A stretch of DNA of 64,000 nt. Source: Natronomonas salina. GTDB lineage: Archaea; Halobacteriota; Halobacteria; Halobacteriales; Haloarculaceae. Shown piece by piece: positions 58,305-60,121 of the stretch. The notes under the pieces are model-generated. The model had not been told where the DNA came from and made no database searches. It worked only from the letters and a program-made list of their open reading frames with translations. The stretch is taken from assembly GCF_013391105.1 (NCBI RefSeq), contig NZ_CP058335.1, positions 1,364,001 through 1,428,000 of the forward strand, written 5' to 3'. Made by a program: the position numbers and the translations under genes. The stretch's first letter is position 1. Each line of letters begins with the position of its first letter.

Positions 58305-59135
58305 CTACAGGGAGAGGCCGGGGTCTGCCGACGACCCCAGGCCGGTCGCCATCAGGCGGCGCGCGACGACCACGAGACCGTTGGTGAAGCCCGTTCCGAA
58401 GATGGCCTTCTCGTCGGCGGGGGCGCCGCTGGCCGTCTCGTGGAGCGTGCTGACCAGGATGGCCCGCCGGTCGACCAGCAACAATCGACTGATCACGGTG
58501 TCGTCGCCCGTGTCGTCCATGGACTCGTTGAGCCACTCCAGCCCGGTGACGAACGTCTCCGCGTCCGGCAGGTCCGTCTGGACCCGCTCTCGGATCTCCT
58601 CGGTCAGCGTCCCGACGATGACGTCGACGCCGTCGTTCTGTCCGTCCTCCAGGGCGTCGAGGAGTTCCTCGGTGAGCACGCCCGGGTGGCCGACGACGAT
58701 GACGACCTCCTCTTCGGCGTCGTCGAGCAGCTCCAGCGTGCGGGTCCCGATGGCCGTCTCGCCGGAGAGCGACCAGACCTCGTGGGAGACGTCGGCGCCG
58801 TCCTCCGAAGTGGCGGGTTCGAGACCCCGGAGTTCCTGGAGGAGGTCGTCGGTCCGGTCGGCGAAGTCCTCCCGGAGCGTCGTGGCCGCCTCTTCGACGG
58901 AGACCGCGCGGAACTGCTTGGGGCTGGCGTGCTGGACCTCGACCAGCCCCTTCGCCTCAAGGACGCGGATGGCGTCGTAGATCCTCGTCCGCGGGACCTC
59001 GGAGATCTCGCTTATCTGTTTCGCGGTGCCGCTCGGGAGCCGGCAGAGCGCGACGAAGCACCGCGCCTCGTACTCCTTGAGCCCGAGCTGCTGGAGCAAT
59101 TCTATCGACTGTTCCCGTTTCGTGCGATCTGACAT
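58305..59135 (-). CDS. TrmB-family transcriptional regulator
   Basis: From ATG 59135 the protein has 276 residues. The N-terminal wHTH is clear: LLQQLGLKEYEARCFVALCR, then TAKQISEISEVPRTRIYDAI and VLEAKGLVEVQHASPKQFRA. The C-terminal 150 residues form the alpha/beta sensor region (EVVIVVGHPGVLTEELLDAL, then VISRLLLVDRRAILVSTL). It is shorter than sugar-binding TrmB proteins (about 350 residues), so the ligand may differ. The segment just before and including its start codon is exactly complementary to a loop of the candidate small RNA at 59312-59384. Confidence 0.9.
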   Translation of the reverse strand: MSDRTKREQSIELLQQLGLKEYEARCFVALCRLPSGTAKQISEISEVPRTRIYDAIRVLEAKGLVEVQHASPKQFRAVSVEEAATTLREDFADRTDDLLQELRGLEPATSEDGADVSHEVWSLSGETAIGTRTLELLDDAEEEVVIVVGHPGVLTEELLDALEDGQNDGVDVIVGTLTEEIRERVQTDLPDAETFVTGLEWLNESMDDTGDDTVISRLLLVDRRAILVSTLHETASGAPADEKAIFGTGFTNGLVVVARRLMATGLGSSADPGLSL

Positions 59136-59283
59136 GGTCCCAACCATCAACCGGCGGCCCCGGCTTCTTGGTAGGTTGTCGGGCCACACACAAGTGCGTT
59201 CCTGTCGCCGTGGGCGGCCGATTCGAGGCGATCACGGGGCACCGTCGTCCGGTTCGACCCTGTTACTCAAATTATCACAGTAA

Positions 59284-59292
59284 AGTTATACG
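59284..59292 (+). promoter_or_regulatory. TATA box of a candidate small RNA
   Basis: The sequence agttatacg, preceded by the purine-rich acagtaa (BRE-like), stands in an otherwise GC-rich gap. It would start transcription near 59312 on the plus strand. No plus-strand protein gene follows. Confidence 0.45.
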
Positions 59293-59311
59293 GGCTGACC
59301 CCGAATACACG

Positions 59312-59384
59312 AGCGGCGCCCGGCGGCCTGTGGTCCCAACCATCAGCACGACCGGGCGTCGAGCTGTCCTTGGACAGCTCTTTT
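59312..59384 (+). ncRNA. Candidate antisense small RNA facing the TrmB-like mRNA
   Basis: The predicted start (about 59312, from the TATA box at 59284) and a perfect 9-bp hairpin followed by TTTT at 59361-59384 bound an RNA of about 73 nt. Bases 59314-59323 pair with 59352-59361 (10 bp, one G-T). The 28-base loop contains tggtcccaaccatca at 59331-59345. This is the exact complement of the TrmB-like mRNA from -14 to +1, and three G-U pairs extend the match. Transcription has not been shown. A duplicated operator could give the same repeat. Confidence 0.4.
59361..59384 (+). terminator. Perfect 20-base palindrome followed by TTTT
   Basis: The arms gagctgtcc and ggacagctc are separated by tt. 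The run TTTT at 59381-59384 follows directly, as in intrinsic terminators. It would end a plus-strand transcript starting near 59312. Confidence 0.5.
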
Positions 59385-59485
59385 GTGAACGCGGCTCCGC
59401 GGCCCGCCGCCGACGTAGCCGACTGTCTGTTACCCCGAGAGCGACACCGACGTCGACCGGACCGGCCGATTCGCTGTGACCACGC

Positions 59486-60121
59486 TCAGAGGACGCCGAA
59501 GCGGACGTCCAGCAGGAGCGCGAACCCGGCGAGCCACGACTGGAAGATCACACTGCCGAGCGCCGACAGCGCCACGAACGTCCGGTCGTCCATGTCGGCC
59601 AGCCCGGCGGGGACCGTGAGCATCCCGCGGGTGAACAGCAGCGAGTTCGAGACCGGGACGGCCAGCGGCCCCCAGCGGTCGAACCAGCCGTCGAAGCGCT
59701 CCAGTTGGTCCCGCGAGACGCGGAACCACGACTGCTCGAGCAGGTACTCGCGGCCGGCCCGCTTCGCGACCGTGAACAGCGCGTACTGCCCCACCGTGGC
59801 GCCGAGGACCGCGACGCCGATGACCGTCGCGATGCCGACGTAATCGCCGGCGCCGCCCGTCAGCAGCGCGATACCCGCGGGGACGAGCGCCTCGCTCGGC
59901 GCGAAGTACAGCAGCATCGCGCCCTCGAGGACGAGGATGCAGAACAGCGCCGCGAGGCCGTAGCGGTCCAGCAGCCGGGCGGCGTACTCCGAGTCCGCGA
60001 ACAGGAAGAGGTAGATTCCGACGGCGGCGCAGGCGAGCGTGACCCCGCCCGCGAGATAGACTGCGTAGCGCTCGAAGAACCGCCCGAGCCGCTCCGTTCC
60101 GGTCGGGGTACCATGGGCCAT
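59486..60121 (-). CDS. DedA/VTT-family membrane protein
   Basis: From ATG 60121 the protein has 211 residues with five to six hydrophobic segments: [40 protein letters not shown], and then the SNARE-assoc (VTT) core with [36 protein letters not shown] and [20 protein letters not shown]. The re-entrant motif and the FxRWG segment are typical of DedA proteins, which act as lipid flippases or transporters in other organisms. Its substrate here is unknown. It is divergent from hemB, 99 bases away. Confidence 0.88.

Follow-up and report, generated by a model that had tools for sequence, protein, structure and literature searches.

A two-hairpin RNA encoded beside a haloarchaeal TrmB-like gene is predicted to pair with the leader of its mRNA and probably blocks translation initiation

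What is encoded in the intergenic stretch between a TrmB-like regulator gene and a VTT-domain gene on the 3.75-Mb chromosome of the haloarchaeon Natronomonas salina, and what does a segment of it that repeats the regulator's start region do? In the 64,000 nucleotides of this chromosome that we analyzed (the window), the TrmB-like regulator, a protein of 276 aa, occupies positions 58305-59135 of the minus strand (PF01978, E 2.4e-21; its nearest solved sequence relative is TrmBL2, 5bpd, E 1.2e-10), and the VTT-domain gene lies at about 59486-60121, also on the minus strand. An earlier note on this DNA had proposed that the stretch between them yields a small RNA whose loop is complementary to the TrmB-like mRNA at its start codon. 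Our reading, which we consider probable, is that a two-hairpin RNA encoded beside the TrmB-like gene pairs with the leader of its mRNA and most likely blocks initiation.

Structurally, the predicted small RNA gene spans 59311-59384 of the plus strand (~74 nt) and is delimited by a match to a covariance model of the family (R1, below) and by its fold: the minimum free energy (MFE) of 59310-59387 is −44.1 kcal/mol (z = −4.75), and none of 200 shuffles was as stable. By MFE fold and family covariation, hairpin 1 runs from 59315 to 59360 of the plus strand and bears the C-rich loop UGGUCCCAACCAUCA. Its helix, the stem noted earlier, pairs 59314/15-59323 with 59352-59360/61 and includes one G-U, but the stem as proposed shared position 59361 with hairpin 2, and one base cannot serve both helices. 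The 28-nt loop described for this stem is present as well, but it is partly paired internally in the MFE fold, where the tip of the hairpin becomes TGGT-CCCA-ACCA. Hairpin 2 and its TTTT (59361-59384, plus strand) are terminator-like, the hairpin occupying 59361-59380, and this helix also covaries in relatives, although the terminator scan by itself performs as chance would, with 3 found and 3.0 expected in shuffles. The TATA box claimed for the RNA was found as TTATAC at 59286-59291 of the plus strand, with a predicted start near 59311-59314; most relatives have a TATA-like box at a conserved distance. Upstream of it lies an operator-like motif, TTACTCAAATTATCACA (59263-59279, plus strand), to which relatives match at the same ~22 nt spacing: the consensus TnACYCnnWTWATCACA precedes the TATA box of the RNA at 48 of 51 loci. 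Operator-like sequences resembling this consensus also occur in relatives' TrmB promoters.

Within hairpin 1, the antisense stretch of the loop covers 59329-59347 of the plus strand, and its central 15-mer (59331-59345) recurs exactly at 59135-59149. The loop (TGGTCCCAACCATC) is exactly complementary to the TrmB mRNA leader (GATGGTTGGGACCA) from −14 to +1, and when G-U pairs are allowed the predicted target extends over 59133-59151 of the minus strand (−16 to +3), a 19-nt pairing confirmed by counting contiguous runs. All of this agrees with what had been claimed from the letters, and in this genome the duplex would take in the start codon itself. The 15-nt match between leader and upstream region compares with a mean of 7.8 and a maximum of 12 in shuffled sequence, and the 19-nt duplex is the longest run among 98 leader/loop pairs that we compared across relatives. 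A search of 146 genomes of the family for the 14-mer ATGGTCCCAACCAT found it in 2, and the reversed control likewise gave 2 matches. The RNA locus and the leader lie 180-200 bp apart on opposite strands without overlap, so the RNA is not a cis-encoded antisense RNA.

Relatives of the RNA were reached via the protein. A DNA search with the 107-nt locus returned no relative because the sequence is too diverged, and we gathered TrmB-like loci purely by protein similarity, which gave 72 haloarchaeal loci, 55 of which carry the RNA; the viral contigs that we searched held no relative of the TrmB protein. From an alignment of 41 RNAs, most of them chosen by their loop core, we built the covariance model R1. 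In that alignment standard pairing accounts for 93.9% of the cells in the 13 pairs, 10 of which show changes on both sides; none of 500 shuffles reached any of these measures, and the covariation signal was lost when the pairing was slid by 1-3 columns. The helix of hairpin 1 has compensatory changes at five of its seven pairs. The loop core GTCCCAAC is invariant in all 41 aligned RNAs, partly by construction, since most were picked by that core; the stems were not so chosen. In the model-fitted alignment, G-U cells outnumber A-C cells 65 to 11, and since a G-U on this strand reads as A-C on the other, the excess identifies the strand antisense to TrmB as the one that folds. R1 matches 83 of 292 haloarchaeal genomes, in 30 of 76 genera, and scores the N. 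salina RNA, itself one of the 41 sequences behind the model, at 35.4 bits (E 1e-4) as the sole match in its genome. With compensatory changes thus above controls, we regard it as almost certain that the structured RNA is real. Rfam 15 gave no match at gathering score for this RNA or for seven relatives, the window yielding two tRNAs only, and no report of the family turned up in the literature that we searched; most subscription papers lay outside that search, so this silence is not proof of novelty. At three loci (L209, L210 and L226) the RNA family adjoins an Lrp/AsnC-type gene with no TrmB gene directly beside it, and ~870 nt beyond the RNA of L226 there is a TrmB gene whose leader matches. 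A Haladaptatus genome holds a second RNA copy close to the first (L046:5777-5853), with the variant loop GGATCCCAACC.

On the mRNA side, the TrmB leaders of relatives end in a near-invariant motif, with the consensus GGTTGGGAC(A/C)(C/A)-ATG; it mostly reads GGTTGGGACAC-ATG, and in Haladaptatus GGTTGGGACCC-ATG. The motif (GGTTGGGAC/CC) is present at 52 of the 55 loci with the RNA versus 3 of the 17 without (Fisher p 1.3e-9, a value that ignores relatedness). At three loci (L084, L085 and L097) with the full leader motif, no RNA was found in the flanks that we searched, and it may be encoded elsewhere. A second copy of the motif, in the same orientation and ~150-430 nt upstream, forms the loop of the conserved antisense-strand hairpin in relatives, with the operator-like motif and a TATA-like box before it and the second hairpin after it. 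The segment shared by leader and upstream copy is typically 11-15 nt long, against 6-9 nt in the opposite-strand control, with few exceptions.

Evolutionarily, leader and loop vary together, the RNA family co-evolving with the leader of a single TrmB subfamily. Matched variants are ACAC with GTGT, ACCC with GGGT, ACCA with TGGT and CC with GG, and the class of the leader agrees with that of the loop in 78 of 89 rows (ACA/ACA 52, ACCC/ACCC 13, ACCA/ACCA 7, CC/CC 6). In the column table of the leader/loop comparison a few rows (L071, L077, L206) are mis-anchored, which makes the mismatches counted in that table an upper bound. Two genomes (G293 and G186) each hold two pairs, ACAC with GTGT and ACCC with GGGT, both matched, and at a Halorubrum locus (L071) the leader GGGTGGGACAC stands opposite the loop GTGTTCCACTC, giving 11 pairs, two of them G-U. 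In the congeneric orthologs (L003-L007 and L215) the leader reads GAGGTTGGGACCA (GGGTTGGGACCA at L007), and the loop is TGGTCCCAACCTC or one near it. As full duplex energies are noisy because they permit long internal loops, we scored contiguous runs instead: 83 of the 98 leader/loop pairs can form an uninterrupted duplex of 10 nt or more (median 12), against a mean of 5.5 in control windows of the same loci. The remaining 15 (among them L051, L055, L068 and L205) have runs below 10, which suggests that pairing was lost in some lineages. In a permutation test none of 20,000 trials reached the observed value, although this test, too, ignores relatedness. On the TrmB tree we counted 7 class changes for the leader, 13 for the loop and 14 for the joint class, too few to give a phylogenetic sign test of independent co-change any power. 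Complementarity to the start region has thus been maintained in evolution, on few independent class changes, and independent divergence of loop and TrmB start, named earlier as the outcome that would speak against pairing, is the opposite of what the duplexes and classes show. We therefore rate base pairing between the RNA and the TrmB leader as very likely on these comparisons; much of the conservation of the loop core could serve another role, for example binding of a protein.

The suggestion that both partners form mini-hairpins and meet as a kissing complex fared unevenly. The apical loop on the RNA side is conserved in relatives, but the AUG mini-hairpin on the mRNA side is absent from most of them, whose mRNA has a GC hairpin upstream and leaves the leader motif unpaired. 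In N. salina the mini-hairpin ATGGT-TGGG-ACCAT is possible; as folded, it is predicted in the leader of a CxxC-protein gene (below) and not in the TrmB segment. The GC-rich hairpin of relatives' leaders sits directly before the motif, and a conserved promoter-like sequence, GAGTGACAATACCTATCCGT, lies farther upstream.

What follows the RNA differs among genomes. In many relatives, a second TrmB protein ORF (Pfam TrmB) begins ~70-90 nt past the loop, and in those genomes the RNA is thus the 5′ leader of the mRNA of this divergent paralog; in Haloarcula marina a divergent gene is annotated after it. No paralog ORF lies behind the RNA in N. salina, in Haladaptatus, or at L003-L007, L090 and L104. 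In these stand-alone copies hairpin 2 often ends in a T run, with T4-T6 tails in several, although an automated count of the T residues that follow hairpin 2 did not set them apart from the paralog-linked copies (2.62 versus 2.27 T per 8 nt). The N. salina genome holds several TrmB-like paralogs (eight matches), and the two nearest in sequence to our regulator (at 2108285 and 2951567) have no leader/RNA pair.

These observations have to be set against other explanations. The pairing may be real and its output different, with the RNA stabilizing or activating the TrmB mRNA, or the TrmB leader regulating the RNA or the paralog's leader through mutual leader-leader pairing. That the RNA is an mRNA leader before a divergent TrmB ORF in many genomes fits such an exchange, and stabilizing archaeal sRNAs have been mentioned (PMC5892119); the stand-alone copies lack a paralog ORF to be regulated, though, and in most loci the start codon is reached or abutted, which is the usual geometry of repression, so that we consider a different output unlikely. 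Less probable still is that the RNA acts only in cis, as an attenuator or riboswitch in the 5′ leader of the divergent regulator, with the match to the other leader secondary: the leader position in many genomes and the two hairpins ahead of the ORF would suit it, but it leaves unexplained both the matching motif in the other mRNA, which varies with the loop, and the copies that have no ORF behind them, and we regard it as very improbable.

From the perspective of DNA rather than RNA, the two copies might be direct-repeat binding sites of an autoregulatory TrmB-type protein instead of RNA partners. The repeats have the same orientation and a conserved spacing, the N. salina site is a near-perfect palindrome (ATGGT-CCCA-ACCAT), and co-change is equally expected of DNA sites. 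Operators, however, should show no bias towards one RNA strand, whereas the upstream copy invariably forms the loop of a covarying hairpin, and the stems that hold it carry the G-U excess that marks the antisense strand; most relatives lack the palindromy (GGTTGGGACAC), some changes are compensated via G-U (L071, L046), and the conserved motif ahead of the TATA box is a separate and better candidate for an operator. We therefore judge DNA sites improbable. That the repeat and the hairpins arose by chance could appeal to the regional terminator count, which equals that of shuffles, and to the empty 107-nt DNA search, but the repeats, the R1 matches, the covariation and the tie between leader motif and RNA refute it, as do the congeneric orthologs, which share the arrangement and have a matched loop, leaving chance a negligible standing.

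Functionally, then, we favor a trans-acting RNA. Position 59311-59384 of the plus strand would be transcribed as a short two-hairpin regulatory RNA beside, and not overlapping, its target; its C-rich hairpin loop would pair in the cell with the divergent TrmB-like mRNA at its 5′ leader and start codon; and since the loop would occupy the leader and reach or abut the start codon, initiation should be blocked. We infer that repression of translation is the likely main output, a somewhat less firm statement than the pairing itself. Action in trans on the neighboring mRNA would be the simplest account that covers stand-alone and paralog-linked copies alike, and where the RNA serves as a paralog's 5′ leader, the expression of the two regulators would be linked. 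The conserved operator-like motif before the TATA box is probably a TrmB-type operator and suggests that a TrmB-type protein may in turn control the promoter of the RNA.

A second target is conceivable in N. salina. The 12-mer TGGTCCCAACCA has three copies in the genome, and the third runs right up to the ATG (GATGGTTGGGACC-ATG) that starts a gene for a 53-aa CxxC protein (C1:2107080-2107238), in whose start region 14 nt are perfectly complementary to the RNA, so that the RNA would probably pair with this mRNA, too. The gene and its motif (C1:2107080-2107251; L035, L229), outside the window, lie ~1 kb from a TrmB paralog. None of 108 other genomes of the family has a match to the CxxC protein, and the motif is absent from its four paralogs; found in this genome only, control of the CxxC gene in trans is our guess for this lineage. 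The pattern GGTTGGGACN{0,3}ATG gave 40 matches in 31 genomes that carry the RNA versus 8 for the reversed control, and because most of these are the TrmB gene itself, no large regulon is evident.

Bacterial antisense RNAs with C-rich hairpin loops, such as the Rsa RNAs of Staphylococcus, target the Shine-Dalgarno sequences of many mRNAs. The haloarchaeal RNA resembles these in that its stable stem bears a UCCC-type loop, which would seed pairing at a G-rich start region, and differs in that GGTTGGGAC is not a Shine-Dalgarno sequence and that each RNA apparently serves one adjacent gene. By function, the nearest known system appears to be the Methanosarcina mazei RNA sRNA162, by which an mRNA for a transcription factor is masked in its start region (Jager et al. 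2012, PMC3510493). It is archaeal as well and, as we predict for the RNA described here, pairs at the translation start of such an mRNA and has another target that is encoded separately (PMC3510493); yet sRNA162 masks a ribosome-binding site in trans with a single-stranded linker and acts on a cis-encoded mRNA with its 5′ end, whereas the haloarchaeal RNA would use a hairpin loop against an adjacent, non-overlapping divergent gene with which it forms a co-varying pair. SHOxi and sRNA132 of Haloferax volcanii are likewise haloarchaeal intergenic sRNAs, with malic enzyme and a phosphate transporter operon as their proposed targets; these are other target classes, and SHOxi is listed with a length of 254 nt and a location on pHV3 (PMC12482152). 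OxsR, TrmBL2 and TrmB share the PF01978 DNA-binding domain with the regulated protein and are known as DNA-binding regulators; we found no sRNA control of any of the three in the literature searched.

Archaeal sRNAs with known targets are few, and target prediction for haloarchaeal intergenic sRNAs has been described as unreliable (PMC5892119). Here the RNA lies beside its presumed target, evolution has fixed the pairing region, and the natural variants ACAC, ACCC, ACCA and CC provide ready compensatory swaps, so that the way in which base-pairing RNAs control archaeal translation initiation where no Shine-Dalgarno sequence is present can be tested directly, and in lineages to which Haloferax belongs. 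On the sequence evidence, the RNA very probably acts as a switch on a TrmB-type regulator. At the level of the family, we lean, if only slightly, towards an RNA that ties two divergent paralogous regulators together, in which the leader of one paralog, or a related stand-alone RNA, may silence the other at its start codon; one genome could then hold several distinct specificities, and a second mRNA would be recruited occasionally.
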